From positions 1 to 49,710 of IMG/VR virus record IMGVR_UViG_3300004463_000172: 49,710 nucleotides of DNA. One strand, given 5' to 3'. The notes under the pieces were generated by a model. It saw only the letters and a program-made list of their open reading frames with translations. It was not told the origin of the DNA and searched no databases. Position 1 is the stretch's first letter. Each line of letters starts with the position of its first letter. The position numbers and the translations under genes are program-made. Shown one piece after another: positions 4,467 to 33,897 of this stretch. Source of the DNA: a virus.

Positions 4467-4487
4467 CCCCAGCCAAGGAGCAGAGCC

Positions 4488-4916
4488 ATGTTTATTGATG
4501 CCTTGCTGCTGGTGAGTGACGCCCAGGCGATCACCGCCGATGCAGCCTCGACGAACACGATCGACCTCGGCGCCACCAACATGCGCATGGGGAGCGGGAA
4601 GCCGCTCGTGTTCTTCTTCTCGATCGACGTCGCCGCCGACATCACCACCGGCGACGAGACTTACGCCTTCCAGGTGATCCAGTCGGCGGCCGCGAACCTC
4701 TCGAGCCCCGACATCCTGGCGCTGCGCACCATCGTGGCGGCCGACCTCAAGGCCGGCATGAAGCAGACGATCGGGATCCCGATCGGCACGCCGACCAAGC
4801 GGTATCTCGGCGCCTACTACGACGTCGGCGGCACCACGCCGACGATCACGGTCACGGCCGGGGTGGTCCCGACGGACTTCGTCGACCGCTACGACTACTA
4901 CCCCGGCGTCTTCTGA
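4488..4916 (+). CDS. Bbp16-like capsid cement/decoration protein
   Basis: 142 residues, with AAGGAG in the 21-nt gap before ATG 4488. The N-terminus (MFIDALLLVSDAQAITADA) and the all-beta body with VDRYDYYPGVF at the C-terminus match the Bbp16 family. In BPP-1, Bbp16 is the protein that stabilises the capsid surface, encoded next to the major capsid gene. The position directly downstream of the capsid gene agrees. Confidence 0.8.
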   Translation: MFIDALLLVSDAQAITADAASTNTIDLGATNMRMGSGKPLVFFFSIDVAADITTGDETYAFQVIQSAAANLSSPDILALRTIVAADLKAGMKQTIGIPIGTPTKRYLGAYYDVGGTTPTITVTAGVVPTDFVDRYDYYPGVF

Positions 4917-4952
4917 GGCTCGGCCTCACAACCAGAAAGGAGCAGCGCGATC

Positions 4953-5975
4953 ATGGCCGACCAGAAGAACCAGAAGGACAAGGACACCACCATCCGCGGC
5001 AGTGGGCAGCGGGTGGTCGAGCCGCCGCGGGGCCGCACCCGTCCCGCCGGCGGGACGGCCCGCCCGACCGCTCCGGCGGGCCGGGTCGGGATGGCCGGCA
5101 GCAAGCCCGGCGTGCAGGGGCGCCCGCTGCCCCGGGCCGGCGTCTCGAGCGCGCGGCCGCAGACGGCGCGCGACCGGGCCGAGCAGGATCGGGTGGCCCG
5201 CGAGCAGGCCGCCGTCGCCGCCGAGCAGGAGCAGGAGCAGGCGCGCCAGGCCGAGGACGGCACCACGGGCGCCGAGGCCGCCGAGTCCGCGCGCGGACGC
5301 GGGCGGGCGGCGGACCAGGAGGTGCTCGCGCCCGACGCGCTCGACGAGGATCAGAAGCGCGCGCGGGACGCCGAGCTCCGCGCGGTGCCGGAGGAGCTGC
5401 GCAACGCCGACACGTCGGGTCATCAGCCCAACGAGTCGACCCGCAGCCAGCAGCCGACGATGCTCGAGAGCAAGGGCGGTACGACGCAGCCGCACCCGAC
5501 GATGGCCCCGCGCGCGGCGGTCAGCAGCCGGCAGGAAGGCCCGCCGGGACGCAGCCACGACCGCGGCGCGGCCGGCGCGCAGCTGGTGCGCGACCTCGGC
5601 GGCGCCAGCCCTGAGGGCACGATCATGGTCCGCGCGACGATGACCGGCTACTACAATCACGCCCGGCGGCGCGAAGGCGACATCTTTTCGCTGATCCCGC
5701 TCGAGGGCAAGGTCACGGTGCCAGTCACCAACGACGAGGGCGAGCAGCTCTACGATCGCAACGACATGCCGATGACCAAGGAGGTCGAGGCGATCATCCC
5801 GCCCGAGCGGCAGTTCTCGCGCGCGTGGATGGAAGTGGTGAACGCCGACGAGGAGGAGCGCATCTCGACGGCCCAGCAGGCCATCAACCGCGAGCACGAC
5901 CAGGCGCTGGCCGAGCGCGCGGGCTTCACGGTGCGCGGCAGCAACCGGGCCGCGGACCAGAGCGTGACGGAATAA
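4953..5975 (+). CDS. Low-complexity virion-region protein with conserved C-terminal domain
   Basis: Start ATG 4953 follows AAAGGAGCAG. Residues 1-220 of 340 are Arg, Ala, Glu, Gln and Gly-rich low-complexity sequence, probably disordered. Residues about 225-305 form a compact domain (IMVRATMTGYYNHARRREGD, then FSRAWMEVV) like a small domain in many phage head-region proteins of unknown role. The coding sequence contains a perfect GTCCCGCCGGCGGGAC palindrome at 5041-5056. It lies between the cement gene and the tail genes, so it may be a head-tail or minor capsid protein. Confidence 0.75.
   Translation: MADQKNQKDKDTTIRGSGQRVVEPPRGRTRPAGGTARPTAPAGRVGMAGSKPGVQGRPLPRAGVSSARPQTARDRAEQDRVAREQAAVAAEQEQEQARQAEDGTTGAEAAESARGRGRAADQEVLAPDALDEDQKRARDAELRAVPEELRNADTSGHQPNESTRSQQPTMLESKGGTTQPHPTMAPRAAVSSRQEGPPGRSHDRGAAGAQLVRDLGGASPEGTIMVRATMTGYYNHARRREGDIFSLIPLEGKVTVPVTNDEGEQLYDRNDMPMTKEVEAIIPPERQFSRAWMEVVNADEEERISTAQQAINREHDQALAERAGFTVRGSNRAADQSVTE
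5041..5056. repeat. GTCCCGCCGGCGGGAC palindrome, copy 1
   Basis: Perfect 16-bp palindrome. Exact copies occur at 29448-29463 and 37652-37667, and copies with one end base changed at 20792, 40585 and 43189. Here it falls in the low-complexity part of the 4953-5975 gene. Confidence 0.8.
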
Positions 5976-12348: not shown

Positions 12349-14108
12349 TGCCGACCGTTCCCGTCTACGGCCCGCGGCGCGTCGAGACCCAGGCGCTGCC
12401 CGGGGTGCGCAAACAGGCGGCGCTCACCGAGCAGGCCGCCGGCGTCGGGGTGGAGTATGCGAAGGCGGGGCGCAGCGAGGCGCTCGGGCGCCTGGGCGAG
12501 ACCACGGGGCGCGTCGGGGCCGCCGCCTACACCGAGATTCAGCGCAAGGCCGAGGAACGCGCCACCGACGTCGCGCAGACGCTCGCCGACACCGAGCTGG
12601 CGAAGTGGCAGATCAAACGGCTGCACGACCCGGAGAGCGGCGCGCTGAACGTCCGCGGCCAGAACGCGATGGGCCTGCCCGAGCAGGTGATGGGGGAGTT
12701 CGACCAGGTCGCCGACCAGATCGAGGCGGGCCTGACGACCGACAAACAGCGGCAGATTTTCCGGCAGATCAAGAACAAGCGATCCCTCAACATGCTGCAG
12801 GTGCTCAGCGAGCATACCAGCCGCGAGATCACCCGCGTCGAGCAGGAGGGGCTGCAGGCGAAGATCGACAACACGCGCAGCCTGGTGGCGGCCAACGCGA
12901 CGCATCCCGACATCGTCGCGTCGGAAATCGACAGCACCGCGGCGGCGATCCGCGCGCACGGCCGCAACATGGGCCTCGACCTCGACACGATCGAGACGCA
13001 GATCGCGCAGATGGAAAGCGGCGCGTTTGCCACCGCCGTCGAGACGCTGGTCGACAACGGGGCGACGCCGGCGGCCAAGGCCTACTTCGACACCATCAGC
13101 AGCCGGATCACCGACCCGGAGCACCGCGACCGCCTGCAGAAAATGCTGGCGTCGCAGACCGAGCTCGATGAGGTGTTCGCGCAGGCCGACCGGATCATCG
13201 GCGAGGGCGGCGACGAGACGGCGCAGCTGGCGAAGGCGGCGAAGCTGCCGGCCAAGATCCGCCAGGGCGTCGAGCAGCGCATCGGCCAGAACCAGGCGCG
13301 GGTGAAGCAGGCGCAGCGCGAGCAGGAGTCGGACCAGCTGAAAGTGGCCTATGCCCGGCTGTTCAACGACGGCCGCGGCGGGGTGCCGGTCGAGAGCCTG
13401 CCGCCGTCGATGCGCGAGGCGCTCGCGGATCACATTCCCGCGCTGAAGTCCTTCGCCGACAGCATGGTCGACGGCGGCGGCGTGCAGAAGAGCGACCTGC
13501 GCGCCTTCTACACCATGCTCGACAACGCGCAGCGCGACCCGAAGACGTTCGCCTACCACACGACCCTCGAGCCGCTGCAGTCGGTGTTGACGCAGAGCGA
13601 CTACCGCAAGCTGAAGGATCTGCAGCTGGAGCTGCGCCAGGGCAAGCAGCCGAAGCAGCTCGAGGACGTCAGCAGCCGCAAGGAGGTCTTCGAGTCGACG
13701 CTGCGGGCCTACGGCATCGACACCGCGCGCGACGCCGACAAGCCGGGCACCGAGGCGGCCAACACGCTCTTCGAGGTGCGGCAGATGGTCGACCGGCGGG
13801 TCGAGGACGTCGAGGCCGGCGGCAAGCGCGTGACCGCGACCGAGTATCAGCAGATCGTCCACAACGTGCTGGCCGAGCAGTATCAGGCGCCGGCCTCCGG
13901 GTTCCGGCGCTTCTTCGAGGCGCTGGGCCTGCCGGCGCAGACGCGGCGCCTGGTCGAGGTGCGCTACGAGGACATCCCGCACAGCGAGCGGCTGGAGATC
14001 GAAGCCTCGCTCCGCCGGCGCGGGCGTCCGGTCAGCCCGCAGACGGTGCGGGATGCGTTCGTGGCGATCCGCGAAGACGAGGCCGCGCGCGAGAAGGTGC
14101 GGCGCTGA
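12348..14108 (+). CDS. Internal virion protein, gp15-like core/ejection protein
   Basis: 586 residues, ATG 12348 overlapping the previous TGA. Almost wholly helical and rich in Gln, Glu, Ala and Arg. Features include PVYGPRRVETQALPGVR at the N-terminus, a segment resembling phage ejection proteins (LHDPESGALNVRGQNAMGLP) and repeated helical pairs. The length and position fit the middle internal core protein, which forms part of the channel for genome ejection. No enzymatic motif seen. The stop overlaps ATG 14108. Confidence 0.7.
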   Translation: MPTVPVYGPRRVETQALPGVRKQAALTEQAAGVGVEYAKAGRSEALGRLGETTGRVGAAAYTEIQRKAEERATDVAQTLADTELAKWQIKRLHDPESGALNVRGQNAMGLPEQVMGEFDQVADQIEAGLTTDKQRQIFRQIKNKRSLNMLQVLSEHTSREITRVEQEGLQAKIDNTRSLVAANATHPDIVASEIDSTAAAIRAHGRNMGLDLDTIETQIAQMESGAFATAVETLVDNGATPAAKAYFDTISSRITDPEHRDRLQKMLASQTELDEVFAQADRIIGEGGDETAQLAKAAKLPAKIRQGVEQRIGQNQARVKQAQREQESDQLKVAYARLFNDGRGGVPVESLPPSMREALADHIPALKSFADSMVDGGGVQKSDLRAFYTMLDNAQRDPKTFAYHTTLEPLQSVLTQSDYRKLKDLQLELRQGKQPKQLEDVSSRKEVFESTLRAYGIDTARDADKPGTEAANTLFEVRQMVDRRVEDVEAGGKRVTATEYQQIVHNVLAEQYQAPASGFRRFFEALGLPAQTRRLVEVRYEDIPHSERLEIEASLRRRGRPVSPQTVRDAFVAIREDEAAREKVRR

Positions 14109-17100
14109 TGCTGCCCGAAGACGACGACCCGCCGGGCGCGCCCCCGCGTAGCCGCTACGATGACTTCTTCGACGAGCAGGATCGCCGGGAGGAGCGGCGC
14201 GTCCGCGCCAGTCTGATCCAGACCGCTGACACCTCACCCGATCGCGCCGCCGAAGCGCGCCGCCTGGCGATCCGCATGGGCGCCCCGGTGGCGATGGTCG
14301 AGGCCAACCTCGACGCCTTCCGGCAGCGCGACCAGGCCGAGAGCGTGCCGGCCGCGCGCATCGCCAAGGAGTCGCCGCACCTCGCCGGCTTCATCGGCCA
14401 GTCGCCCAACAACGCGGCGATCGTCAAGGACGACCTGCAGCAACTCGGGTTGCTCGAGTGGTTGGTCACCGCCCCGCAGCGCGCGGCGGCGCAGGGCTTC
14501 AACCAGATCACCTACGGTCGGCTGCGCCATCAGAGCCTGTTCCGCGACCTCACGCAGGAGGAGCGGGATCAGATGAACAGCGCGAAGCTGCACATGGAAG
14601 CCGGCGGCGAGCTCGGGGCCAGCGGCAGCTGGTTCCGCAGCGCGGTGACCGGCGCCAGCCAGCAGCTGCCGATCCTGCTCGGGGCGGGCTGGGGTGCGGC
14701 GACGCGCGGCGTGCAGGCGGCGGGGGTCGGGGCGGTCGCCGGCGCGGCGATCGGCGCGGGCGGCGGGCCGCTGGGCATGGCGCTCGGCATCGCCTCCGGC
14801 ATCGGCACCGGGCTGACGGTCGGGAGCCTCGCGGGCGGCGCGGAGTTCAGCTACGAGCTGGAGAGCGGGCTGGCCTACGACGAGTTCCTCAACTTCCGCG
14901 ATGAGCACGGCCTGCCGCTCGACCCGGCAGCGGCGAAGGGGGCGGCGCTGGCGGCCGGGGTGATCAACGCCGGCCTCGAGACGGCGGGCGGGTTCGTCCT
15001 GGCGCGCACCTTCAAGGCGCTGGGCCTCGAGCGGCTGTCGTCGGCCGGCGTGCGCTCGATCGTCAAGCAGGCGCTGCGGACGCCGACCGTGCGCGGCGCG
15101 ATCACCGACATGGTCAAGAGCTACGGCGGCGCGGTGACCGGTGAGGTGTCGACCGAGATCGCGCAGCGCGCCGTCACGATCATCGCCGGCGAGATGGCGA
15201 AGGGGCAGGCCCCGCAGGCGACGGTGCCCGGCCTCGTGCAGCCCGGCACGGTGAACCTCTACCAGCAGCCGGTCGTGCAGAACGCCGACGGGACGACGTC
15301 AACGGTCGACAGCTTGAGCGTCGGGCTGGATGGGCACGAGGTGCTCTTGCCCACGGTGACGCCGGATGGCCGCCACTTCACTGGCACGCCCGAGCAGGTG
15401 CAGGACGCCGCCATCGCCGAGTATCGGCGCACCGGGCGGCACCTCGGCATCTTCACAGACCCGGCGAGCGCCACGGCGTTCGCGCAGCAGCTGCACGAGG
15501 ACTTCGCCGCCGGCCACTACACCGGCACCGGCTACTTCCGGAGCGTCGCGCAGATTGCCACCGACCTCGCGCAGGAGGGGATTGGCGCGCTGCAGTCGAT
15601 GGCGCTCACCGTGCTGCCGGGCCCGCTGATCTCGGTCCACGCCGACCTCCGCCAGGCGAAGCGGGCCGCGCAGGCGCAGCAGTGGTTCCAGGCGCTCAGC
15701 GAGGGCGTCACGCAGTCGGCGACCGTCACCAAGATGCCGCAGGTGGCGCAGGAGCTGCTCGCGCAGGCGACCAAGGACGGCCCGCTCGAGCACACCTACG
15801 CGCCCACCGACAGCTTCGCGCAGTATTGGACGGAGCAGGGCGTCGACCCGCGCGCGATGGCGACCGAGCTCACCGGCGACGCCGACGCCTGGGACCGCGC
15901 GATCCGGCTGCAGGAAGACCTGCAGATCCCGACGTCGCGTTACGCGGTCAAGCTGGCCGGCACCGAGCATCACAAATTCTTCAGCCGCGAGCTGCGCCTC
16001 GGTGACCCCGACGCCTGGAACCAGCGCGAGGTCGAGGCCTACGTGGCCGCCGAGGCCGCCAAGCCGAAACCCGAGCCGGCCGCGCCGACCGCCGGCGACC
16101 TCTTCGAGGCCAAGATCGCCGAGCGCCTGACGGGTGCGGCGTTCACGCCGGGGCAGGCCGCCCCGATCGCGGCGCTCTACCGGCAGACCTACGAGCACGC
16201 GGCGGCCGAGCTGGGGCGCCCGCTCGAGCGCCTGGTCGAGGAGCAGGGCCTGCGGGAGGTGGTGCGGCCGGACGTGCCCCGGCCGGTCGAGCAGGTGATC
16301 GCCGAGGCCACGACCGCCGAGGTGCCCGCCGAGCGCCAGGCGGCCCCTGGGGCGCCCCAGGCGGCGCCAGCCACCGGTGCGCCCCAGGCGGCCGAAGGCC
16401 CCCAGGGCGCCCAGCCAGCCGCCACGGCGGCGTTCCTGGCCTACGGCCCCTCCGGCCCGCTCTACAACATCACCGGCGGTCCGCACGACCGCTCGACCGT
16501 CAGCGCCGCCAAGCTGACCGAGCTCGGCATAGCGGTGCCGGAGACGCCGGCGGACACCGGCGAGCGCCTGACCGGCGCCCAGCTGCGGGAACAGGCCGTG
16601 GCCGCCCGGGCGGCGCTCGAGACCAGCACGCCGCGCGCGGCCGTGTTAGCCCGGCTGATCGACGCCGCCCCGGAGGCCGACGCCGCGGCCGAGATTGCTG
16701 TCCAGCAGGTGGCGACCCGCGACCAGCCGATCGACTGGCGCGACCCGGTCGCCGCGGCCAAGCAGATGCTGGCCGAGGATCCGCAGATCATGGCGAAGGC
16801 CCGGGCGCTGGCGGAGCGCACCCGGGCCACGCGCAAGGAGGCGCCGCCGCGCGCCAAGAAGGGAGCGACCAGTGCCGCGCAAACTGCCGCCGCTGAAGCC
16901 GGGGCGGTCGTATCAGACCGTGTTGGCGAACAGCCTCCTGCTGGTGCGGGCGGGGCTGTCGAGGGGGGAGGCCCTGGCCGTGGCGCTGAACCACGCGGGG
17001 TATCGGCCTCCCTCCGGGGGATCCCCGAGCTCGACGAGGTCTTCGAGCGCCAGTCTCCCGAGCAGATTGCCGCCCGCCTGACGCCCGAGGTGCTGGCCGA

Positions 17101-20100
17101 GGTCGAGCGCCTCTACGACGAGCTCGACACGTTCCGCTACCAGGAGCGAACCTGGAATTGGCTCAAGCCGGGCGAGCGGGTCGGCACCGTCGAGGGCGCC
17201 GGCGGGCACGCTGAGATCAAGGCGGGCGCGGCCGGCGCGCCGGTCTACGACGACGTGATCGCCTTCTCGCCGGTCAACCTGTATCGCGGCAAGCCGGCGA
17301 AGACCGCGCGCGGCTCGCGGGCGGATGTGCGCGCCGCGGCCGAGGCGGTGCTGCAGTCGCGCGACATCGCCAGCAACCTGGCCGAGGGCGTCGTGCGCGT
17401 CGCCGAGCACCGGGCCGCTGGCGAGATGCGCGACCTGTCGCCGCGGTGGCTCCCGCCGCCCACCGGCGTCGAGGCCTCGGTCAGCTTCACCAACGCGCTG
17501 CAGGAAGACCTCGACCGCCTGATCGACCAGGGGCCCGACGCGGTCGAGCCCGAGGGCCCGGTCGACCTAACGTTCGACGAAGCGATCGACGACCTGATGC
17601 AGAGCCTGTTCGACCTCGAGCCGGACGACACGCTCGAGACTGGCGAGAAGCAGCCGCGGCTCCCGGGCGCCGGCGAGGCGCGCAAGGTCGGCAAGGCCGA
17701 CACCAGCTTCCGCGCGCCGGTGCAGGCGACCAGCGAAGACTTCGAGCTGACGCCCGAGGGCGCCCCTGCCGAGACCGAGGATCAGGGCGAGCTGTTCCAG
17801 CGGATGCCGCCCGAGGTCGAAGGCTTCGAGGTGGTCGACCCCTACCTTGCGCCGGACGAACGTGAGCGCCTCACGGCCCCGCACGCCGAAGCGATCGTCG
17901 ATGCGTTCCTCGAGCTGCCGAAGGATCTGGACTTCGAGCAGGTGGCGCTGGCGGGCCAGGCGGCGCGCGGCTGGTATCGGCGCGCGACCAAGGCGATCTA
18001 TCAGGTCTTCGGCCCGGTCGACGGGGCGCGCTTCACCGGGCTGCTGTCGGCACTCTCGCCGCGGGTCAAGGTCGCCGAGAACCTCGAGAACGCGATCCTG
18101 ATGTGGAACGCCTGGGTGGAGGCAGGGCGCCCCACCGACGAGTCGACGATCACCCGGATCATGCGCAAGGCGGTGCGCCGCGGCAAGGGCGTGCTGCCGT
18201 CGTGGGGCAACAACGTCGTCCGCGCGCTGCAGGTCGAGGATCCGCACGACCTCGTGCTCTCGGGCCCGAAGGTGCATAGCTTCGCGCGCAACCTGAAGGG
18301 CTACCAGGACGAGGTCACCAACGACATCTGGATGGCGATCTTTGCCAACCTCGATCAATCGCTGTTCGGCGGCAACATCAACAAGGCCGGCACGTTCTCC
18401 GGGCGCAGCGCCTTCTACACGGCGATGGCCGCCAAGGTGCGGCGCGTCGCCGAGCGGCTGACCGAAAAGACCGGCGAGACCTGGACGCCGGCCGAAGTGC
18501 AGGAAACCATCTGGTCGTGGGTGATGACGCTCTACCAGCTGGCGCAGAGCACCGGCGCGACGGCCGAGGAGATCGTGCGTCGCGGCGAGCTCACCGATGC
18601 ACAGATCCGCGAGGCGCCGCAGTTCACCGACTTGTTAGCCACAAATGCCGAGATCCGTGCTATCTTCGAGGCCGGAGGGTATGGGGATGCGCTCGCGGCC
18701 GTCGAAGCGGAATTTACGCAACCTGCTGCTGCAGACGTCCGCCCTGCGACAGAGCGACGAGCAGCGCCGGCTCGCAAAGGTGCGACGGTTGGCCTCCTCC
18801 GCAGCGCCCAGCGCGTCGACGTCTTCCGCCGTCAGCGCGAAGCCGCTCGCGCCGACGCCGACGAGCTCTACCAGCTAGAAGACGGACCCAAGCCGGTCTT
18901 CTACTCCCGCCTCGTGCGGGCCGTTGATACCTCCAAACAAGCCAAAGCCCCCGGCGCGCAGTGGAAGGCGGCGATCCGCAACGCCAAGGGCGGCATCGCC
19001 AAAGACGAATTTGCCATCGCGCGCGTCGACGACCTCGAGGACGGGCGTAGCTACACCAAGGCCGAAGTGCTCGACTACCTCGCCGCGAACACGCTGCAGG
19101 TGGAGACGGTGCGCCTCGGCGCGCGTAGCTACACGCCGCAGCAGGTGCAGCAGCGCGCGGGCGAGCTCTTCGAGGCGGAGGTCAATCGCCAGATCGAACG
19201 GGCGGAAGAGAGAGGCGAGCTAGATGACATGACCGTGTCCGTGGAAGCCGTCGAGACCGAGGACGGCTTCGAGGTTTACCTCAATGATGAGGCGACAGGC
19301 GACGTCTACGAGAGCCGCGACGAGGCGCTCGAGCGCGGGTATTCGCTGGCCGACGCGCACGAACAAGGGCTCCGCGAAGACTTCGTGGCCGAGATCGGGA
19401 ACGGGCTGAACTACGCCGAGTTCGAGGCGCAGGCCGAGGAAGAGTTCGACGCTGGCGGGTCGGCGGTGCAGTTTGCCCAATACGTCGAGCCGGGCCTTGA
19501 GGAAGGCAGCTACCAGGAAGTGTTCCTGACGGTGCCGCACCTGCCTCAGTTGGCGCGCGATCCGGTGGTCAGCTATCGGTATATCGCGCCGTCGTCCCTG
19601 CACCCGGGCAAGGTCAACGTCGAGCCGCGGATCAACGGGCGTGAGCTCGAGCTGCCGGATGGCGGGCACTACGTGACGGTGCCGGCCGACGCCACCGAGG
19701 CCGAGATCAAGGACGCGATCCGCGACGCCTACGGCGAGGTGCTCAGCCAGGGGATGCCGCTGCGCTGGTGGGACGGGCACAACGACTACGACCACATCGA
19801 GAACCCGATCGTGCGCGTGCGGCTGGGCGTGCGGCAGACGGTCGACAGCCAGCGCGTGCTGTTCCTCGAGGAGGTGCAGCCGCCGAGCGAAGAGAATCAG
19901 CAGCAGATGCCGCCGCTGCTGATCAAAAACTGGCGCGAGCTCGGGTTCAAGTGGGCGCTGCAGGAAGCCGCCGCGCGCGGGCTCGCCGGCGTTGCCTGGA
20001 CGACCGGCGACCAGCAGCGCGACCGCTACCGGCTGTCGACGCAAGTGCGCAAACTGGACTGGCAACCGCGCCTGCACGGCAGCACGGAAGCCTCGACGCG

Positions 20101-23100
20101 CTGGGTTGAGATGGACACCGGCGCCGGCCTGGTGCGGTTCAACGTCGACGCGAAGGGCACCGTGCTCGAGGAGGACGCCTCGCAGCTGGCGCAGCAATTC
20201 GTCGGCAAGAACCTGAAGGACATGGTCGGCCCCGAGCTCGCCGCGAAGATCCAGGGTGAGGACCGCGGCACGCTCGAGGGGCAGGCGATCGACATCGGCG
20301 GGCTCGGGCTCAAGCGGCTCTACGACGTCGACTTCCGCAACGTCGTGCAGGGCCTGCCGGCGGTGAAGCAGCACGGCGGGCGCGTGGAGGTGGCGGCGCT
20401 GAAGCGGGGCGACCCCGACGCCGAGTATCGGATCGAGGAGCGGCCGGACTTCCAGACCGCCAGCCAACGCACCGCGGAGCAGAACGCGGCGGTGGCCGCG
20501 ATCGACGAGCAGCTCAACGCGCTGTTGGAGAGCAGCACGACGGCCGACCCGCGTTATCAGGCGCTCTCCGCCGAGCGCGACCGCGCGGCGTCTCGCGTGC
20601 AGTTTGTGGTGATCAAGCGCGTGCCCGGTGTGCTCGAGCAGCGGGTCGGCGGCTTCGCCACGCGCGAACAGGCCGAGGCCGAGCTCACGGCGCAGCAGCA
20701 GACCGACCAGCCCTACCTGCCGCTGACGCCGCAGATGCGCGAGGCGCTGCTCGCCGGCCAGGCGCTCTTCCAAGAGGATCAGCCGCCCGGCGTCCCGCCG
20801 GCGGGATGGGAGAAGGCGACCCCGGAGCCGCCCAAGGCGCGCGGCAGCTACAACCGCACGCACCGGATCATCACGCTCTTCCAGACCGCCAACCCGTCGA
20901 CGATCCTGCACGAGACCGGGCACCACTTCCTCGAGCTGTGGGCGAACCTCGCGGTGCAGCCCGACGCCTCGCCGCGGCTGAAGGCCGATGCCCTGGCGCT
21001 CTTGCGCTTCGGCGGGTGGCAGGGTGACCTCGAGACGTGGCAGACGCTCACGACCGACGCCCGGCGCGACGTCCACGAGAAGGTCGCCCGCGGCTTCGAG
21101 GCCTACCTGTTCGAGGGCAAGGCGCCGACCTCGACGCTGCGCTCGGCGTTCGCCACGTTCCGCGCCTGGCTGCTGGGCGTCTACCAGACGGTGCTGCGGC
21201 TGAACGTGCAGCTGACACCCGAGGTGCGCGGCGTGTTCGACCGCCTGATCGCCTCCGATGCCGCCATCGCCCAGGCCGAGCAAGAGGCAGCGGTGCAGCC
21301 GATGTTCCTGACGGCCGAGCAGGCCGGCATGTCGGAGGCCGCCTTCGCGCCCTACAAGGCCGCGATTGCCACCGCGTCCCGGGCGGCGCGCGAGACGCTC
21401 GATCGGAAGCTGTTGCAGGAGGTGCGCCGCGAGCAGACCGCGCGCTGGGAAGAGGACAAGGCGCAGATCCGCGAGGAGGTCAAGGCCAACCTCTACGCCC
21501 TGCCGACCTACCGCGCGCTGGCGGCGATGCGCAGCGGCACCAACCCCGACGGCTCGCCGCTGATGGAAGGCGAGGCGACGCTGCCGCCGATGCGCCTGTC
21601 GCGCCAGCTGCTGGTTGAGAAGTTCGGCCCGGAGCGCCTGCGCCAGCTGCCGCGCGGGATCTACAGCGCGGCCGGCGGGCTCGACCCTGACTTCGTCGCC
21701 GAGCACTTCGGGTTCACGAGCGGCGATGCGATGCTGCGCGCGGTCGCCGTCGCGCCGAAGCTGACCCAGGCGGTCGAGGAGGAGACCCAGCGCCGCATGA
21801 TCGAGCAGCACGGCTCGCTGCTGCTCGACGGCACGCTGCTCGAGGAGGCGCAGGCGGCGGTCGCCAACGAGGACCGCGAGCAAATCCTGCGCATGGAGCT
21901 GCGCGCCCTGGCCCGGCTGCGGGCGCTCGCCAAGCCGGCGCTGCAGGAAGCGGCGGGGCAGCTACGCGCCGAGCGGCAGGAGCGCGCCTACGAGCGGCGC
22001 TGGCTCGAGGCCGAGGCCAAGCTGCGGATCGCGTTTGCCGAGGGGCGCAAGCAGGCCGAGATCGACGCGCTCGCCGGCGAGGTCGCCGACCTGCGCGCCC
22101 GAGCCCGCGGCGGTGCGGCGGTGATCCGCGCGGCGCTGCCGCCAGCGGAGCTGGTGCGCAACCAGGCGCGCGAGCGGCTGGCGGCGATGCGCGTCGGGGA
22201 TCTGCAGCCGCAGCGGTTTTGGGCGGCGGCGCGGCAGGCGGCCAAGCGCGCGCTCGAGGCGGCGGCGCGCCAGGACTTCGACGCCGCCATCCTGGCGAAG
22301 CAGCAGGAGCTGATGGAGGTCGCGCTCTACCGGCAGGCGATGCAGCTGCGCGAGGAGATCGAGACGCGCACGCGCCAGGCGCAGGCGCTCGACACGCCGG
22401 CCAGCCGCGCGCGGATGGGCAAGGCGGGGCAGACCTACCAGGAGCAGATCGACGATCTGCTCGACCGCTACGAGTTCGCCCGCGTGCCGCAGCGCCAGCT
22501 GGCGAAGCGCGCGAACCTGCGCAAGTGGATCGCCGCGATCGAGGGCGAGGGCCTGCCGATCGACTTACCCGAGTCGGTGGTCGAGGACACGCGCCGCGTG
22601 AACTACCGCGAGCTCACCGTCGAGGAGTTCCTCGGGGTCACCGACGCGCTGCAGCAGATCGCGCACTTTGCCCGGCTAAAGAACCGGCTGCTGGCGGCGA
22701 AGCAGGAGCGCGAGCTGGCGGCGGTCTCCGCCAACCTGGCGCGGTCGATCCGCGACCAGCATGTCGGCGGCCCGCGGAAGGACGTCGTCGGCGACCGGCG
22801 GCCGACCGAGGAGGCGTGGCGCACCGTCGCCGACTTCTTCGGCGGGCACCGCAAGCTGTCCAACATCCTGCGCGACCTCGACGGCTATCAGGACGGCGGC
22901 GCGGCTTGGGAGGCGATCCTGCGGCCGCTGAACGAGGCCGGTGACCGCGAGGCCGTGATGATGGCGGATGCCACCGCGGCGTTCGGCAACCTCGTCGAAC
23001 GCGCCTTCCCCGGCCGGCAGAAGCGCACGCTGTATCAGCCGGTCGAGATCAAGGCGATCGGCAAGAGCCTCAGCCGGATGCAAACGATCACGGTGGCGCT

Positions 23101-24796
23101 GAATTGGGGCAACGCCGACAACCGGCAGCGCGTGCAGGACGGGTTCGGGTGGACGCCGGAGCAGGTGCAGGCGATCCTCGACACGCTCACCGCCAGCGAC
23201 CTCGCCTTCGTCCAGGGCGTGTTCGACTGGTATGACTCCTACTGGCCGCTGATCGAGGCGAAGCAGCGGCGGGTGACCGGGCTGGCGCCCGAGAAGGTCG
23301 AGGCGCTGCCGATCAAGGCCCGCGCCGGCGAGATCCGCGGCGGCTATCACCCGCTGAAATACGATGACCGCCTGAGCGCCGGCGCGATCAAGGCGCTCGA
23401 CCTCGAGGCGGCCAACCTGGCGAAGCAGGCGGCCTACACCAACGCGACCACCCGGCGCGGGCACACCGAGGCGCGGCTCGCCGTGGTGAAGCTGCCGGTG
23501 CGGCTCGACTTCGGAGTGATCTACGAGCACGTCACCCAGGTGATCCACGACCTGTCGCACCACGAGGCGCTGCTCGACGTCGGCCGCATCCTCGGGCAGA
23601 AGGCGGTGCAGGAGGCGATCCTCGAGACCAAGGGGGATCTGATCTACAAGCAGATCCGCAACGCGGTGCGCGACATCGCCTTCGGCGCGGTGCCGGCGGT
23701 GAACGGGTTCGAGCGCGCGGTCAACCATATCCGCCAGGGCGCCACCGTCGTCGGCCTCGGCTGGAACTTCACGACCGCGGCGCTGCAGCCGCTGGGCCTT
23801 AGCAACTCCATGTTCCAGATCGGGCCGACGTGGGTCGCCCGCGGCCTCCTGCGCTGGCTGCGCACCCCGACGACGATGGGGCAGACCGTCGAGTGGATCA
23901 GCGAGGTGTCGCCCATGATGCGGATGCGCGGGCAGACCCAGCAGCGCGAGATCAACGAGATCCGCCAGCAGATCGGACTCTCCACCGGGCGGGTGACCGG
24001 CTGGGTCGATGCGGCGCTCGAGGCGGTCGGCGACCCGGTGACGCGGCACGGCATCGCCGACAGCTACTTCTGGATGATCCAGCAGATGCAGCGCGTCGCC
24101 GACGTGCCGACGTGGCTCGGCGCCTACGAGAAAGCGATGGCCCGCGGCGAACAGGAGGACCGCGCCATCGCGCTGGCCGACCAGGCGGTGCTCGACAGCC
24201 AGGGCGGCGGGCAGATCAAAGACCTCTCGCAGGTGCAGCGCGGCGGGCCGATGATGAAGCTGTGGACGAACTTCTACAGCTTCTTCAACGTGCTGCACCA
24301 GCAGCACCGCGAGGCGCACGGACGCGCCGCGCGCGAGAGCAACTACGCGGTCAAGGTCGGGCGGCTCGGCGCCGACTACCTGATGCTGTTCGTGATCCCG
24401 GCGACGCTGGGCTATTTGCTGCGCAACGGGCTGCGCCCCGGCAACGAGGACGATGACGACGCCAATACTTGGGCTGCCATCTTGGGGGAAAATGCGGCGT
24501 ATCTGGCGGGCACGATGCTTGGCCTGCGCGAGGTCAGCGGCGCGATTCAGGGCAGCTACGGCTACGAGGGCCCGGCGGGCGCACGGGCGTTTGCCACCTT
24601 CTCGCGGCTGGCGCAGCAGGTGAAGCAGGGCGAGCTCGACGCGGCGCTCTACCGGGCGACCCTGGAGAGCGCGGGGATCCTGTTCCACTTCCCAGCCGCG
24701 CAGGTGCGGCGGACGCTGGAAGGCCTCGCGGCGCTGGCCGAGGGGAAAACGCTCAACCCGATGGCGATCCTGACCGGCCCGCCTCGGCGACAGTAA
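14108..24796 (+). CDS. Giant polyvalent internal virion/ejection protein with zincin motif
   Basis: 3,562 residues in one open frame. Segments in order: N-terminal helical region; hydrophobic Gly/Ala stretch (about 190-250); a domain common in phage virion proteins (about 380-470, GTVNLYQQPVVQNADGT and later RRTGRHLGIFTDP); Ala/Pro linker; a large conserved domain (about 1245-1530, YLAPDERERLT, FTGLLSALSPRVKVAEN); a domain with VLFLEEVQPP near 1919 and AGVAWTTGDQQRDRY; a zincin motif HETGHH with His2268, Glu2269, His2272; long coiled coils (about 2380-2900); and a C-terminal region (about 2945-3562) of the ejection-protein type with a hydrophobic stretch near 3420. This is the polyvalent-protein architecture: virion-carried multidomain proteins delivered with DNA. 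Two stretches (16872-17015, 18687-18795) have poor codon character in this frame and good character in another. Confidence 0.8.
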   Translation: MLPEDDDPPGAPPRSRYDDFFDEQDRREERRVRASLIQTADTSPDRAAEARRLAIRMGAPVAMVEANLDAFRQRDQAESVPAARIAKESPHLAGFIGQSPNNAAIVKDDLQQLGLLEWLVTAPQRAAAQGFNQITYGRLRHQSLFRDLTQEERDQMNSAKLHMEAGGELGASGSWFRSAVTGASQQLPILLGAGWGAATRGVQAAGVGAVAGAAIGAGGGPLGMALGIASGIGTGLTVGSLAGGAEFSYELESGLAYDEFLNFRDEHGLPLDPAAAKGAALAAGVINAGLETAGGFVLARTFKALGLERLSSAGVRSIVKQALRTPTVRGAITDMVKSYGGAVTGEVSTEIAQRAVTIIAGEMAKGQAPQATVPGLVQPGTVNLYQQPVVQNADGTTSTVDSLSVGLDGHEVLLPTVTPDGRHFTGTPEQVQDAAIAEYRRTGRHLGIFTDPASATAFAQQLHEDFAAGHYTGTGYFRSVAQIATDLAQEGIGALQSMALTVLPGPLISVHADLRQAKRAAQAQQWFQALSEGVTQSATVTKMPQVAQELLAQATKDGPLEHTYAPTDSFAQYWTEQGVDPRAMATELTGDADAWDRAIRLQEDLQIPTSRYAVKLAGTEHHKFFSRELRLGDPDAWNQREVEAYVAAEAAKPKPEPAAPTAGDLFEAKIAERLTGAAFTPGQAAPIAALYRQTYEHAAAELGRPLERLVEEQGLREVVRPDVPRPVEQVIAEATTAEVPAERQAAPGAPQAAPATGAPQAAEGPQGAQPAATAAFLAYGPSGPLYNITGGPHDRSTVSAAKLTELGIAVPETPADTGERLTGAQLREQAVAARAALETSTPRAAVLARLIDAAPEADAAAEIAVQQVATRDQPIDWRDPVAAAKQMLAEDPQIMAKARALAERTRATRKEAPPRAKKGATSAAQTAAAEAGAVVSDRVGEQPPAGAGGAVEGGGPGRGAEPRGVSASLRGIPELDEVFERQSPEQIAARLTPEVLAEVERLYDELDTFRYQERTWNWLKPGERVGTVEGAGGHAEIKAGAAGAPVYDDVIAFSPVNLYRGKPAKTARGSRADVRAAAEAVLQSRDIASNLAEGVVRVAEHRAAGEMRDLSPRWLPPPTGVEASVSFTNALQEDLDRLIDQGPDAVEPEGPVDLTFDEAIDDLMQSLFDLEPDDTLETGEKQPRLPGAGEARKVGKADTSFRAPVQATSEDFELTPEGAPAETEDQGELFQRMPPEVEGFEVVDPYLAPDERERLTAPHAEAIVDAFLELPKDLDFEQVALAGQAARGWYRRATKAIYQVFGPVDGARFTGLLSALSPRVKVAENLENAILMWNAWVEAGRPTDESTITRIMRKAVRRGKGVLPSWGNNVVRALQVEDPHDLVLSGPKVHSFARNLKGYQDEVTNDIWMAIFANLDQSLFGGNINKAGTFSGRSAFYTAMAAKVRRVAERLTEKTGETWTPAEVQETIWSWVMTLYQLAQSTGATAEEIVRRGELTDAQIREAPQFTDLLATNAEIRAIFEAGGYGDALAAVEAEFTQPAAADVRPATERRAAPARKGATVGLLRSAQRVDVFRRQREAARADADELYQLEDGPKPVFYSRLVRAVDTSKQAKAPGAQWKAAIRNAKGGIAKDEFAIARVDDLEDGRSYTKAEVLDYLAANTLQVETVRLGARSYTPQQVQQRAGELFEAEVNRQIERAEERGELDDMTVSVEAVETEDGFEVYLNDEATGDVYESRDEALERGYSLADAHEQGLREDFVAEIGNGLNYAEFEAQAEEEFDAGGSAVQFAQYVEPGLEEGSYQEVFLTVPHLPQLARDPVVSYRYIAPSSLHPGKVNVEPRINGRELELPDGGHYVTVPADATEAEIKDAIRDAYGEVLSQGMPLRWWDGHNDYDHIENPIVRVRLGVRQTVDSQRVLFLEEVQPPSEENQQQMPPLLIKNWRELGFKWALQEAAARGLAGVAWTTGDQQRDRYRLSTQVRKLDWQPRLHGSTEASTRWVEMDTGAGLVRFNVDAKGTVLEEDASQLAQQFVGKNLKDMVGPELAAKIQGEDRGTLEGQAIDIGGLGLKRLYDVDFRNVVQGLPAVKQHGGRVEVAALKRGDPDAEYRIEERPDFQTASQRTAEQNAAVAAIDEQLNALLESSTTADPRYQALSAERDRAASRVQFVVIKRVPGVLEQRVGGFATREQAEAELTAQQQTDQPYLPLTPQMREALLAGQALFQEDQPPGVPPAGWEKATPEPPKARGSYNRTHRIITLFQTANPSTILHETGHHFLELWANLAVQPDASPRLKADALALLRFGGWQGDLETWQTLTTDARRDVHEKVARGFEAYLFEGKAPTSTLRSAFATFRAWLLGVYQTVLRLNVQLTPEVRGVFDRLIASDAAIAQAEQEAAVQPMFLTAEQAGMSEAAFAPYKAAIATASRAARETLDRKLLQEVRREQTARWEEDKAQIREEVKANLYALPTYRALAAMRSGTNPDGSPLMEGEATLPPMRLSRQLLVEKFGPERLRQLPRGIYSAAGGLDPDFVAEHFGFTSGDAMLRAVAVAPKLTQAVEEETQRRMIEQHGSLLLDGTLLEEAQAAVANEDREQILRMELRALARLRALAKPALQEAAGQLRAERQERAYERRWLEAEAKLRIAFAEGRKQAEIDALAGEVADLRARARGGAAVIRAALPPAELVRNQARERLAAMRVGDLQPQRFWAAARQAAKRALEAAARQDFDAAILAKQQELMEVALYRQAMQLREEIETRTRQAQALDTPASRARMGKAGQTYQEQIDDLLDRYEFARVPQRQLAKRANLRKWIAAIEGEGLPIDLPESVVEDTRRVNYRELTVEEFLGVTDALQQIAHFARLKNRLLAAKQERELAAVSANLARSIRDQHVGGPRKDVVGDRRPTEEAWRTVADFFGGHRKLSNILRDLDGYQDGGAAWEAILRPLNEAGDREAVMMADATAAFGNLVERAFPGRQKRTLYQPVEIKAIGKSLSRMQTITVALNWGNADNRQRVQDGFGWTPEQVQAILDTLTASDLAFVQGVFDWYDSYWPLIEAKQRRVTGLAPEKVEALPIKARAGEIRGGYHPLKYDDRLSAGAIKALDLEAANLAKQAAYTNATTRRGHTEARLAVVKLPVRLDFGVIYEHVTQVIHDLSHHEALLDVGRILGQKAVQEAILETKGDLIYKQIRNAVRDIAFGAVPAVNGFERAVNHIRQGATVVGLGWNFTTAALQPLGLSNSMFQIGPTWVARGLLRWLRTPTTMGQTVEWISEVSPMMRMRGQTQQREINEIRQQIGLSTGRVTGWVDAALEAVGDPVTRHGIADSYFWMIQQMQRVADVPTWLGAYEKAMARGEQEDRAIALADQAVLDSQGGGQIKDLSQVQRGGPMMKLWTNFYSFFNVLHQQHREAHGRAARESNYAVKVGRLGADYLMLFVIPATLGYLLRNGLRPGNEDDDDANTWAAILGENAAYLAGTMLGLREVSGAIQGSYGYEGPAGARAFATFSRLAQQVKQGELDAALYRATLESAGILFHFPAAQVRRTLEGLAALAEGKTLNPMAILTGPPRRQ
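16346..16361. repeat. CCTGGGGCGCCCCAGG palindrome in a linker
   Basis: Perfect 16-bp palindrome inside the Ala/Pro/Gly linker of the giant gene. A partial second copy of its right half follows at about 16380. It resembles the GTCCCGCCGGCGGGAC family in style, not sequence. It may be only a by-product of repeated Pro-Gly-Ala codons. Confidence 0.5.
16872..17081 (+). CDS. Nested small gene, out of frame inside the giant gene (69 aa)
   Basis: GTG 16872 is preceded by AAGGGAG (16859-16865) with a 6-nt spacer. The first 47 residues (PLKPGRSYQTVLANSLLLVR, then AGLSRGEALAVALNHAG) match a well-known family of small phage and prophage proteins with the pattern PLKxGxS...T..N...L...G....A.A.AL..AG. 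In this frame only about 3 of the first 45 codons end in A or T. The giant frame drops to roughly half over the same bases and reads as Ala/Gly-rich filler. After about 17015 the giant frame regains normal codon use and this ORF's tail looks random. I infer a genuine separate gene overprinted by, or inserted in, the giant ORF. Confidence 0.65.
   Translation: MPRKLPPLKPGRSYQTVLANSLLLVRAGLSRGEALAVALNHAGYRPPSGGSPSSTRSSSASLPSRLPPA
18629..18644 (+). promoter_or_regulatory. Operator-like element inside the giant gene
   Basis: GACTTGTTAGCCACAA differs at one position from the promoter element at 39059-39074 (GACTTGTTAGCTACAA) and shares GACTTGTTA and ACAA with the copies at 27361 and 30909. It forces two rare Leu codons (TTG TTA) on the giant gene and lies 43 bp upstream of the nested ORF at 18687. 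No good -10 hexamer at standard spacing is visible, so promoter function is uncertain. Confidence 0.4.
18687..18878 (+). CDS. Second nested small ORF inside the giant gene (63 aa)
   Basis: ATG 18687 follows GGAGGG (18674-18679) with a 7-nt spacer. The first 36 or so codons (RSRPSKRNLRNLLLQTSALR, basic and helical) end in G or C about 86 percent of the time. The giant frame manages only about half over the same bases and reads as an Ala/Pro/Arg linker. After about 18795 the giant frame is good again. No family recognised. An operator-like site lies just upstream. Less certain than the nested gene at 16872 because the protein is not recognisable. Confidence 0.4.
   Translation: MRSRPSKRNLRNLLLQTSALRQSDEQRRLAKVRRLASSAAPSASTSSAVSAKPLAPTPTSSTS
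20792..20807. repeat. GTCCCGCCGGCGGGAC palindrome, copy 2 (one end base changed)
   Basis: GTCCCGCCGGCGGGAT. It lies in the linker of the giant gene between the VLFLEEVQ-containing region and the zincin domain, where it encodes VPPAG. Confidence 0.7.
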
Positions 24797-30959: not shown

Positions 30960-31367
30960 ATGACTACTGCGACTGCCGTCACGAGCCTCGACAAGTCGAC
31001 CCTGCGCCTGATCCAGACCGACATCCTCGCCGCCGTGCAGGCGGTCGCCGCCAAGCATGGCGTGGCGATCACACCCGGCGGCGGCTCGTTCGAGCCGATG
31101 ACCGCCACCGTGAAGCTGTCGATCAAGGTGCTGACCGCCGATGATGGGCGCTCCGGCGATGAGGTCAACTTCGGCAAGTATTGCCAGCTGTTCGGCCTGC
31201 CGGCGGACACCTACGGCAAGACGTTTCGGGTGCGCGGGCTGGATTACACCGTGTCGGGGCTTGACCTGAAGCGCCGCGCACGCCCCGTCATCGCTACCCG
31301 CGACGGCAAGACGTTCGTCTTCCGCGTCGAGGACGTCTGCCGGTTGCTGAACGGCGGTGCGCGATGA
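30960..31367 (+). CDS. Unknown early protein, first gene of second early operon
   Basis: 135 residues. GAGGAG 9 nt before ATG 30960. Alpha/beta with FGKYCQLFGLPADTYGKTFR in the middle and a helical C-terminus. Similar proteins of unknown role are frequent in early operons of phages with ERF-type recombination (recollection). The leader carries GAGGAGACTAACC, which recurs in the loop of the hairpin at 36596-36631. The stop overlaps ATG 31364. Confidence 0.65.
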   Translation: MTTATAVTSLDKSTLRLIQTDILAAVQAVAAKHGVAITPGGGSFEPMTATVKLSIKVLTADDGRSGDEVNFGKYCQLFGLPADTYGKTFRVRGLDYTVSGLDLKRRARPVIATRDGKTFVFRVEDVCRLLNGGAR

Positions 31368-32305
31368 GCAAGCGCCCTGCTGCTCCGCCCGCCACGCCGA
31401 CTGTTCGCACCGTGCAATTCGAGGTGGCCCCCAGCCCCGACGCGCGCGAGGGGCTGACTCTCGCGCAGCAGGCGACGGCGCTGAAGATCACCAACCGCGA
31501 GACGCACGCCGACGCACTCGAGTTCGCGCGCGGCCTCAAGCAGCTGAAACGGAAGATCGAGGATCACTGGTCGCGCATCACCCGCACGGTCGACGACCTG
31601 AAGCGCAACCTGCTGACGCTGAAACGCGAAGACCTCGACCCGGTCGAGCGGGCGCTGGAGATCGTGACGTCCGCCGAGGTCGCGTTCCGCAACGAGCGCG
31701 ACCGCCTCGAGCGGATCGAGCAGGACCGCCTGCGCCGCGAGGCCGAGGAGAAGGCGGCGGCCGAGCGGCAGCGGCAAGCCGAGGCGGCCGAGCGTGCGGC
31801 GCTCGACGCAGAGGCCAACAGCCCGACGCTGTCGGCCCGCGAGCAGGCCTTCGTCGAGGCGTTCCTCTACCAGGATCCCGCGAGCACTGGCGAGGCTGTG
31901 CGCGCTGGGCGCGCCGCTGCCCGCGCTGGCTACAAGGATCCGGAGAAGACGGGTGCGCGCCTGCTGGCGACGTCGAAGATCCAGCAGGCCATCGCGGCGC
32001 GGAAAGAGGCGCTGGCGATCCGCGAGCAGGCGCGGGCCGCAGCCAGCGCGCCCGCGCCGGTCACCGTGCCGAAGGTGCAGACCGAGAAGGCCAAGGTGGT
32101 GGGCGTGCGCTCGACGACCTACTACTCGGCGCAGGTCGACGACCTCGACAAGCTGATCGACGCGGTGCTCGCTGGCACGGTCGACCGCAAGGCGCTGAAG
32201 GCCGACGACGTGTGGCTGAACGGGCAGGCGCGGCAGCTGCGCGAGAGCTTCGAGGGCGCGTTCCCCGGCTGCTCGCTGGTCGTCAAACAGGGACTGGCAG
32301 GTTAG
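31364..32305 (+). CDS. Coiled-coil phage protein with a terminase-small-subunit-like insert
   Basis: 313 residues. The N-terminal 150 form a helical, charged region (LKQLKRKIEDHWSRITRTVD; RNERDRLERIEQDRLRREAE). Residues about 153-210 (LSAREQAFVEAFLYQDPAST, RAAARAGYKDPEKTGARLLA, TSKIQQAI) match the DNA-binding part of Terminase_2-type small terminases. The C-terminal 70 residues (STTYYSAQVDDLDKLIDAVL, then WLNGQARQL) match a family of early phage proteins that normally follow directly on the coiled coil. So a small-terminase-like module appears inserted within an unrelated early protein. A second small-terminase candidate lies at 44155, next to the large subunit. Confidence 0.65.
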   Translation: MSKRPAAPPATPTVRTVQFEVAPSPDAREGLTLAQQATALKITNRETHADALEFARGLKQLKRKIEDHWSRITRTVDDLKRNLLTLKREDLDPVERALEIVTSAEVAFRNERDRLERIEQDRLRREAEEKAAAERQRQAEAAERAALDAEANSPTLSAREQAFVEAFLYQDPASTGEAVRAGRAAARAGYKDPEKTGARLLATSKIQQAIAARKEALAIREQARAAASAPAPVTVPKVQTEKAKVVGVRSTTYYSAQVDDLDKLIDAVLAGTVDRKALKADDVWLNGQARQLRESFEGAFPGCSLVVKQGLAG

Positions 32306-32307
32306 CT

Positions 32308-32688
32308 ATGACCAAGCAACAGGCCCTAAAGGCGGCGCAGGCGAGGTTCGGCAAGCGGGCGATGATTCAGGCGCGGCCCAACGCGGCGCTGATCGGCGCG
32401 CACGGCGAATACGTGACGTGGGCGCAGGTCCGCACGATCAATGAGCAGATGCAGCCGGTGACGTGGCACGGCAAGGCGACGCCGGCGGTGCAGCTTTATC
32501 GCTGCGACCGCTGCGAGCAGCGCGAGCTGACACCGGACGGGCTGATCGTGCGGCAGGTGTGGCACAAGCCGGGCGGGCCGCAGACCGAGTATGCGGTCGG
32601 GCACATCGACAGCTTCCTCGGCGCGTTCCACATCCGCGGCACCGGCGACAGCTTCGAGGCTGCGTTGCGAGACGCCGAGACGCGGTGA
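32308..32688 (+). CDS. Unknown 126-residue protein with a CxxC pair
   Basis: ATG 32308, two bases after the previous TAG, with a weak ribosome-binding site (GCAGG). Basic N-terminal helix (TKQQALKAAQARFGKRA), then beta strands and a single CDRCEQ pair followed by ELTPDGLIVRQVW. Similar small proteins occur in early phage operons. Function unknown. The stop overlaps GTG 32685 of the methyltransferase gene. Confidence 0.65.
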   Translation: MTKQQALKAAQARFGKRAMIQARPNAALIGAHGEYVTWAQVRTINEQMQPVTWHGKATPAVQLYRCDRCEQRELTPDGLIVRQVWHKPGGPQTEYAVGHIDSFLGAFHIRGTGDSFEAALRDAETR

Positions 32689-33893
32689 CCTATGGGCTGG
32701 CTCTATGTGCCGGGGTCGGAGGCCTGGAGCTGGCCTTCGACCTCGTTCTCACCGATTACCGCACCGTCTGTTACGTCGAGAGGGAAGCCTTTGCCGCCGC
32801 CCGCGTGGTCGCGCGCATGGCAGAAGGTGTCCTGGCTCCGGCGCCTGTGTGGGACGACGTTGCCACCTTCGACGGCCGACGCTGGCGTGGACGGGTGGAT
32901 CTCGTCACTGCCGGCTTCCCGTGTCAGCCCTGGTCGAGTGCCGGCAAACGCGAGGGCACCGCAGACGAGCGGTGGATCTGGCCCGCCATCTGCGACCGCC
33001 TACGCGAGCTACAACCGGACGTCGTGTTCTTGGAGAATGTGCCTCCCCTTGTTTCCCGAGGCGGACTGGCCGCCGTTCTCGGCAATCTGGCCGAGCTCGG
33101 GTTCGATGCGGAGTGGGCTCTGCTTCGAGCGGCCGACGTTGGCGCCAGCCACCGACGCGAGCGACTCTACATCCTGGCCTACCGTGACCGACAGCGACTC
33201 GCGCAGCTCGGCCCGGCATACGACGACGACGGGGGTGATGCACCCAGGCACGATGCTGACGGACGCGATCCGGCAGTGGCCGACGCCAGGCGTCGTCGAC
33301 GGCGAGCAGGCGGTGGCGCACAAGGGCAGCAATCCGACGCTGCACGGTCTGGTGATGGATCAGTGGGCGACCCCTGTGAAGCGGGACTATCGATCGGGCC
33401 TGGGCACGCAGAAGCGCGACGGGGCCCAGGCCCTACCGGAGCAGGTGACACGCTGGCCGACGCCGAGCGCGGAACCCTACGGCAGCAGTCAGAACGGGAT
33501 CGGCTGGGCGCACGAGCGGCCGAGCGCGAACACACCGAGCCTCGAGCGGTTGTCCCGCTCTTTCCTCCCGCTCCTGCCGACCTCGACGGATGGCGAGCTA
33601 TCCTCGCCGAGCGATTCGACCTCGCGCCTGCCGTGGAAAACGCCACGGGTCGGCTGCAACGTGACCAGCGAGAAGGCGCGCCGGGAGTTCAGCTCGACGC
33701 CGGGGTTGGCGCAGCAGGCGGCGGGCAGCGCCTCGCTGAAGGGCAAGCCGAAGCTGAATCCGCAATTCGTCGAGTGGCTCATGGGCTGGCCGATCGGGTG
33801 GACCGCCTCCGAGCTTGCGGCAACGGAGTGGTGCCGCTGGCGGCAGCGTATGCGTTCCTCGCTCTGCGCGTTCGTGCGCTCGGGAGGCCTTGA
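32685..33893 (+). CDS. DNA cytosine-5 methyltransferase
   Basis: GTG 32685 overlaps the previous stop. 402 residues. Motif I TYGLALCAGVGGLELAF, motif IV TAGFPCQPWSSAGK with catalytic Cys80, motif VI FLENVPP (Glu117), motif VIII SHRRERLYILA near 155, and motif X VDRLRACGNGVVPLAAAY at the C-terminus. The middle (target recognition region, about 170-320) is of the Ala-Asp-Ala (LADAERG) type. Transfers a methyl group to C5 of cytosine, most likely for protection from restriction. From about 33172 a second frame is also open and has better codon character. Base use in the 5' half is less GC-biased than in neighbours, suggesting acquisition by transfer. Confidence 0.85.
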   Translation: MTYGLALCAGVGGLELAFDLVLTDYRTVCYVEREAFAAARVVARMAEGVLAPAPVWDDVATFDGRRWRGRVDLVTAGFPCQPWSSAGKREGTADERWIWPAICDRLRELQPDVVFLENVPPLVSRGGLAAVLGNLAELGFDAEWALLRAADVGASHRRERLYILAYRDRQRLAQLGPAYDDDGGDAPRHDADGRDPAVADARRRRRRAGGGAQGQQSDAARSGDGSVGDPCEAGLSIGPGHAEARRGPGPTGAGDTLADAERGTLRQQSERDRLGARAAEREHTEPRAVVPLFPPAPADLDGWRAILAERFDLAPAVENATGRLQRDQREGAPGVQLDAGVGAAGGGQRLAEGQAEAESAIRRVAHGLADRVDRLRACGNGVVPLAAAYAFLALRVRALGRP

Positions 33894-33897
33894 GTGA
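33172..33897 (+). other. Overlapping +1 frame encoding an alternative methyltransferase C-terminus
   Basis: The +1 frame relative to the methyltransferase is open to a TGA at 33895-33897, 4 bp beyond the main stop. It encodes a run typical of another class of phage C5-methyltransferase tails: SWPTVTDSDSRSSARHTTTT, QWPTPGVVDGEQA, MDQWATPVKRDYRSG, TRWPTPSAE and LNPQFVEWLMGWPIGW. About 87 percent of its codons end in G or C, against roughly 55 percent in the main frame. It could be reached by +1 frameshifting near 33171-33180 (after RERLYIL) or from GTG 33235 / ATG 33238. Alternatively the assembled sequence carries an indel, yet the main frame keeps motif X. Confidence 0.55.

Follow-up and report, generated by a model that had tools for sequence, protein, structure and literature searches.

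Two overlapping frames of a phage gene probably encode the two chains of one C5 methyltransferase

How can one stretch of phage DNA carry two different C-terminal halves of a C5 methyltransferase? The question arises in IMG/VR virus record IMGVR_UViG_3300004463_000172, all 49,710 nucleotides of which are called the window here. A sequence-only reading of positions 33172-33897 had placed motif X in a main frame and a WPTP tail of another phage methyltransferase class in the +1 frame, and had proposed a programmed +1 shift between them. A different arrangement is favored here: the locus is very probably one two-chain C5 methyltransferase, specified by two nearly fully overlapping genes that are initiated separately.

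Two reading frames over one gene

The first frame, A, encodes the alpha chain (Table 1). It matches PF00145 at 2.6e-31 over residues 7-171 and phrog_363 at 9.8e-55 from its N half through the tail, and its N terminus reads MTYGLALCAGV. Motifs I-VIII fall within the first 163 residues; PCQ and EN are invariant across the aligned A proteins. Motif X lies near the end of the chain, where the string DRLRACGNGVVP is kept in this frame, as had been noted, and the GN of GNGVVP is invariant in 70 A proteins.

The second frame, B, encodes the beta chain, whose N terminus reads MGWLYVPGSEAW. The +1 frame does have the WPTP tail that had been noted, with WPTV/WPTP repeats and LNPQFVEWLMGWPIGW. The whole B ORF matches phrog_1008 at 1.7e-27, and its tail matches both phrog_1008 (1.2e-14) and phrog_27243 (6.7e-15); Pfam and NCBIfam gave no match to B, and no relatives of its N-terminal half are known beyond phrog_1008. 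The 61 B proteins that align share M-x-W-L-Y-x-P, GKP...W...LSG, and WPTP modules, followed by an invariant LNPxFVEWLMGWPxGW. When both tails were searched against families, phrog_363 (A) and phrog_1008/phrog_27243 (B) were thus matched on the same DNA, and TGGCCGACGCC does read WPTP in one frame and (L)ADA in the other. The extent first assigned to the second frame proved too narrow: rather than starting near 33172, B runs from its ATG at 32692 across the whole gene.

What lies ahead of the two starts? The ATG of B is 7 nt downstream of the GTG of A at 32685. The TGA of the upstream gene (32686-32688) overlaps that GTG and, read in the B frame, stands 3 nt ahead of B's ATG. A PHROGs search with the upstream gene (32308-32688) returned no match. 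Two genes upstream of the methyltransferase, a 313-aa protein (window 31364-32302) oddly pairs a first half that resembles an exonuclease family with a middle part matching terminase small subunit. Elsewhere in the window, a single ORF of 3562 codons occupies 14108-24796 on the + strand.

Table 1. Features of the double-coded gene, in window positions
Feature	Position	Strand	Basis or remark
Frame A ORF, alpha chain, 402 aa	32685..33893	+	GTG start; TGA stop 33891-33893; 70-protein alignment
A catalytic half, motifs I-VIII	32685..33173	+	PCQ 32919-32927, ENV 33033-33041, HRRER near 33150
A mid-tail, open tether without recognised domain, partly disordered (predicted)	33174..33773	+	low pLDDT; stops in L118, L107, L144, L154
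Motif X of A, DRLRACGNGVVPLAAAYAF...	33795..33866	+	G379 and N380 invariant in the A alignment
Frame B ORF, +1 to A, beta chain, 401 aa	32692..33897	+	ATG start; phrog_1008; stop depletion
B N-terminal half, M-x-W-L-Y-x-P start plus GKP...W...LSG	32692..33174	+	61-protein alignment; overlaps A catalytic half
B module array, four W[PA]T[PV], putative target recognition	33175..33552	+	module census
B modules singly	33175-33276, 33277-33363, 33364-33453, from 33454	+	fourth module's end approximate
B motif-IX-like segment, LNPQFVEWLMGWPIGW	33754..33801	+	L355, N356, P357, E361, L363, M364, P367 invariant in the B alignment
Paired starts, GTG 32685 (A) and ATG 32692 (B)	32685..32694	+	sequence; paired starts in relatives
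Upstream gene, stop overlapping A start, possible translational coupling	32308..32688	+	ORF and sequence

Coding selection in both frames

Is the arrangement peculiar to this phage? Scans of IMG/VR gave 160 loci, of which 152 entered a motif census, or 59 once near-copies were removed. In nearly all, the catalytic half and the A tail share a frame and the B tail lies at +1 over the same DNA. The suggestion that the two known tail types are frame variants of the same DNA is borne out by the same overlapping +1 matches in almost all 152 loci, far more than chance would give, and this recurrence of both frames rules out a sequencing or assembly indel. A GTDB scan seeded with the B alignment brought in another 80 loci, most of them alphaproteobacterial, a few assigned to other phyla, and one in an archaeal bin; the catalytic half is present in all 80. 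Outside the window, phages and prophages with the double-coded gene number well over a hundred, and their annotation usually lists a single one of the two proteins.

Two observations on individual relatives may be recorded here. In L077, an inserted ORF at ~3900-5300 interrupts the double-coded gene and, judged by eye, resembles an IS110-type transposase (MEKGIIVGVDLAKHSFQLHG...); the tail motifs resume past the insert at 5324-5503. Public annotation of L176, L177, and L163 gives the frame-B product only, under the names hypothetical protein, DNA methyltransferase, and cytosine-specific methyltransferase; the catalytic frame A has no entry there.

Could the +1 ORF be a by-product of high GC that is never expressed? 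The window has ~70% GC, a composition at which spurious long ORFs are common. In the control, the codons of A were replaced by synonymous ones sampled according to the usage of the gene concerned, and stops were counted in the other frames. Over the catalytic half of the 152 loci, 21 stops were observed in the +1 frame against 293 expected, compared with 519 against 679 in the +2 frame, and the +1 depletion reaches back to about residue 20. The 30 non-redundant GTDB loci have no +1 stops over this half against 68.9 expected (+2, 124 against 149.5). Two actinophage loci with the tail as a separate downstream gene are without depletion (GaugeLDP, 4 against 3.5 expected; Euratis, 3 against 3.5), so the effect tracks a full-length B gene rather than all such methyltransferases. 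In the opposite direction, with B fixed, A-frame stops in the tail number 4 against 134.6 expected and those in the control frame 220 against 203; the end of the region was set by B, an earlier version that cut at the first stop having been partly circular. A is uninterrupted in 140 of 149 viral loci. A GC-composition artefact is ruled out by these two-way recoding controls together with loci of 38-50% GC in which the pattern persists. With stops strongly avoided in both directions, the third frame near expectation, and the two frames matching separate families, there is next to no chance that the +1 ORF is an unexpressed by-product.

The way in which the DNA varies tells a similar story. Over 52 independent locus pairs, divergence at the first, second, and third codon positions of A is 0.072, 0.038, and 0.195 in the catalytic half, where A's third position is the most variable. 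In the mid-tail the values are 0.257, 0.117, and 0.127, and the most variable position, A's first, is B's third. All positions are restrained in the last 50 codons (0.109, 0.056, and 0.136), where motif IX of B overlaps motif X of A. Codon character is best in A for the N half and, as had been claimed, in B for the tail, where the third positions of B have a GC of 0.88 and its other two positions 0.61 and 0.60. B amino acids over the catalytic half are also conserved above the recoding control, in a test that treats loci as independent, is inflated by shared ancestry, and serves as support only. By stop depletion and codon-position divergence, selection acts across homologues in both frames, not one; on these comparisons, each is constrained as coding sequence from end to end.

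Might the B tail nevertheless be reached by the programmed +1 ribosomal frameshift proposed near 33171-33180, which would fuse it to the catalytic half as a second enzyme of other specificity? The homology of the B tail begins exactly at the end of the catalytic half, the codon bias changes at that same point, and in mycobacteriophage Rita (see below) the two parts do make one protein. B, however, avoids stops and is conserved upstream of the proposed site and owns a start beside A's, and the fusion product would be without motif X. Selection on B upstream of 33171 would be left unexplained by a shift site there, and the pattern of a programmed +1 gene, in which the downstream frame is selected only after a conserved shift site, was not found. 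We consider such a shift unlikely.

Separate initiation, as the two-chain reading has it, fits the geometry of the starts. In a census that took the nearest pair, and is biased toward short spacings as a result, the spacing from the A start to the nearest B start is +4 nt in 30 of the 59 non-redundant loci (ATGAATG is a frequent form) and -2 nt in 16 (NTGTG, for example ATGTGG), which is to say that 46 of 59 have one of these two spacings; in the window it is +7 nt. Given that bias, what carries weight is the recurrence of these precise spacings at one fixed point ahead of motif I. Ribosomes might reach both starts from a single binding region or through coupling to the stop of the upstream gene.

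A catalytic chain and a putative recognition chain

How are the parts of the enzyme shared between the chains? Of the 152 loci, 136 have motif IX exclusively in B and motif X exclusively in A; among non-redundant viral loci the figure is 53 of 59, and the same division holds in 25 of 30 non-redundant GTDB loci. Motif IX and a recognition domain are not found in the same chain as motifs I-VIII; IX sits in B, and the motif census found none in A in any of the 152 loci. With IX absent from A and X absent from B, the chains are complementary, not duplicates. Departures from the division include 7 loci in which X was not found in A. In one of the census loci, L108, A has lost motif X and B carries it, beyond an additional stretch, which looks like a natural move of the motif from one frame to the other.

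What identifies the B segment as motif-IX-like? The assignment is made by its spacing, by its location ahead of motif X whether the proteins are fused or split, and by a likeness to M.HhaI, whose canonical motif IX is LTPRECARVMGYPDSY. A profile search of the IX-X tail against the PDB found no real relative, and AF2, run on B by itself, gave a poor model (mean pLDDT, 54.6) that does not establish its fold. Another relative is gp76 of mycobacteriophage Rita. In this single protein, the catalytic half, PTP modules, SEWMMGWPAGW, and IIGNGVVP all lie in one frame, and its family matches are to phrog_363 along the whole protein and to phrog_1008 in the C-terminal half. Rita thus shares with the window the catalytic half, the modules, IX, and X, but as one protein. 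GaugeLDP, Euratis, and Upyo have the tail as a +1 gene of its own, which bears both IX and X. In a tree with an arbitrary root and many weak forks, these split and fused actinophage forms make up one group among the overlapping ones. By homology with the Rita fusion and the split forms, the B tail corresponds to the half of a C5 methyltransferase that would recognize the target.

This bears on whether B might be a real overlapping protein with an unrelated role (e.g., anti-restriction or regulation) outside the methyltransferase. The empty Pfam and NCBIfam searches and the isolation of the N-terminal half within phrog_1008 would suit such a role; the equivalence of its C-terminal half to that of the one-piece Rita methyltransferase, and the shift of motif X into B's frame in split forms, speak against it. 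Such a role seems more improbable still than a frameshift.

What, then, does the rest of A do? An AF2 model built on the A alignment is confident for the catalytic domain (residues 1-170) and for motif-X helices at residues 368-400, with pLDDT under 50 at residues 184-193, 195-285, and 332-355. Foldseek returned M.HhaI and M.HaeIII as the best PDB matches to the model. Much of the region between the catalytic domain and motif X is predicted to be disordered, and a recognition domain is absent from the model. In L118, L107, L144, and L154, several stops break the A mid-tail and B stays open; in the first two of these, B is ~500 codons and motif X persists as a late A-frame piece. The four loci have an apparent three-piece form: a stopped catalytic half, a ~500-codon B, and a short later A-frame ORF with X. 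Some phages have A proteins of 234-247 aa, too short to leave room for a recognition domain, and there B supplies WPTP or an equivalent and IX. The disordered or broken mid-tail, the short A proteins, and the missing IX together indicate that A alone is probably not a complete enzyme.

The same evidence weighs on the idea, raised in the sequence-only reading, of two enzymes with different target recognition, in which A would be a full enzyme recognizing through a LADA-type region and B, or a product joining the N half to B, would recognize another target. The phrog_363 match does cover the whole of A. A largely disordered mid-tail that is dispensable in four loci and missing from the shortest A proteins is hard to square with such a region, and no locus has motif IX in A. 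Two separate full enzymes are highly improbable, less credible than either the frameshift or an unrelated B.

According to the two-chain reading, alpha would contribute (i) SAM binding and catalysis through motifs I-VIII, (ii) a largely disordered tether, and (iii) motif X, and beta would contribute WPTP modules for target recognition and motif IX. Ribosomes that terminate on the upstream gene's TGA (32686-32688), or that bind close by, would begin at GTG 32685 or ATG 32692, alternatives that would yield two chains from one mRNA without a frameshift. We infer that translation of B begins at 32692, that the two chains assemble, that DNA is contacted through the WPTP modules, and that neither chain methylates on its own.

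The modules themselves are variable. Relatives carry up to seven, mostly 1-7, with a median length of 36 aa; the window has four of the form W[PA]T[PV]. Module families recur across phages at differing ordinal positions, and the window's first module matches one in mycobacteriophage GaugeLDP. The pattern looks like exchange of putative target-recognition modules.

Known split enzymes and what the locus may mean

Does any known enzyme work this way? M.EcoHK31I (YGGCCR), a two-polypeptide C5 methyltransferase, comes closest. Lee, Kam and Shaw (1995) reportedly found its small chain, of 176 aa, to be encoded within the gene of the large chain but in a different frame, and the window likewise has its second chain in another frame (+1) within the first gene. 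The larger chain of M.EcoHK31I carries motifs I-VIII and X and the smaller chain IX, the division seen in the window, with the predicted recognition domain assigned to the larger chain (PMC3404938). Judged by these shared structural features of motif division and gene layout, the window would work like M.EcoHK31I. In contrast, the window's B spans almost all of A, starting 7 nt downstream, has 401 aa rather than 176, and carries WPTP modules; the recognition domain appears to lie in B here instead of in the larger chain. M.AquI (CYCGRG) is also split in two, with I-VIII in one polypeptide and IX in the other, but there X goes with IX (PMC3404938), whereas in the window X stays in the catalytic chain. 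The actinophage split forms, with IX and X together, are closer to M.AquI.

Among annotated phage genes, Escherichia phage K1ind1 (ORF29/ORF28) and Paenibacillus phage Pagassa (59/60) have a +1 ORF with WPTP and LNP...LMG inside a C5 methyltransferase gene, though that second ORF begins 88 or 202 nt inside the first, compared with 7 nt in the window. The gp65 ShiLan-domain methylase (PMC11855218) is a different methylase with an out-of-frame HNH insertion and does not explain the locus. The open-licence literature, in which M.EcoHK31I and M.AquI are mentioned in passing, yielded no report of the arrangement in phages, an absence that is itself weak. The multispecific C5 methyltransferases of Bacillus phages are single chains with tandem recognition modules of ~40 aa. 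The window has tandem modules of a similar kind, putatively for recognition, in what would be a chain apart from the catalytic one. M.EcoHK31I is the precedent for the motif split; the window differs from it by a beta ORF lying over nearly all of alpha and by a module array that looks exchangeable.

Long overlaps are thought to be rare in double-stranded DNA phages. Here, some 400 codons of such a phage are double-coded on the same strand, with both frames selected. Annotation often records one frame and varies in which; for Alfacinha gp46 and for Sphingomonas and Roseicitreum genes it is frame B. Many phage methyltransferases may therefore stand in the records as half enzymes, and these would seem inactive when cloned singly or codon-optimised. 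The start pairs at +4 or -2 nt offer a testable case of two chains from one initiation region. A broader proposal, offered tentatively, is that phages and prophages of many lineages carry a nearly fully double-coded two-chain methyltransferase in which beta is a swappable WPTP array; the enzyme would be multispecific, its targets would be altered by module exchange, and each module would keep alpha's tether open in the other frame. The module array would then be a testable path to new methylation specificities.
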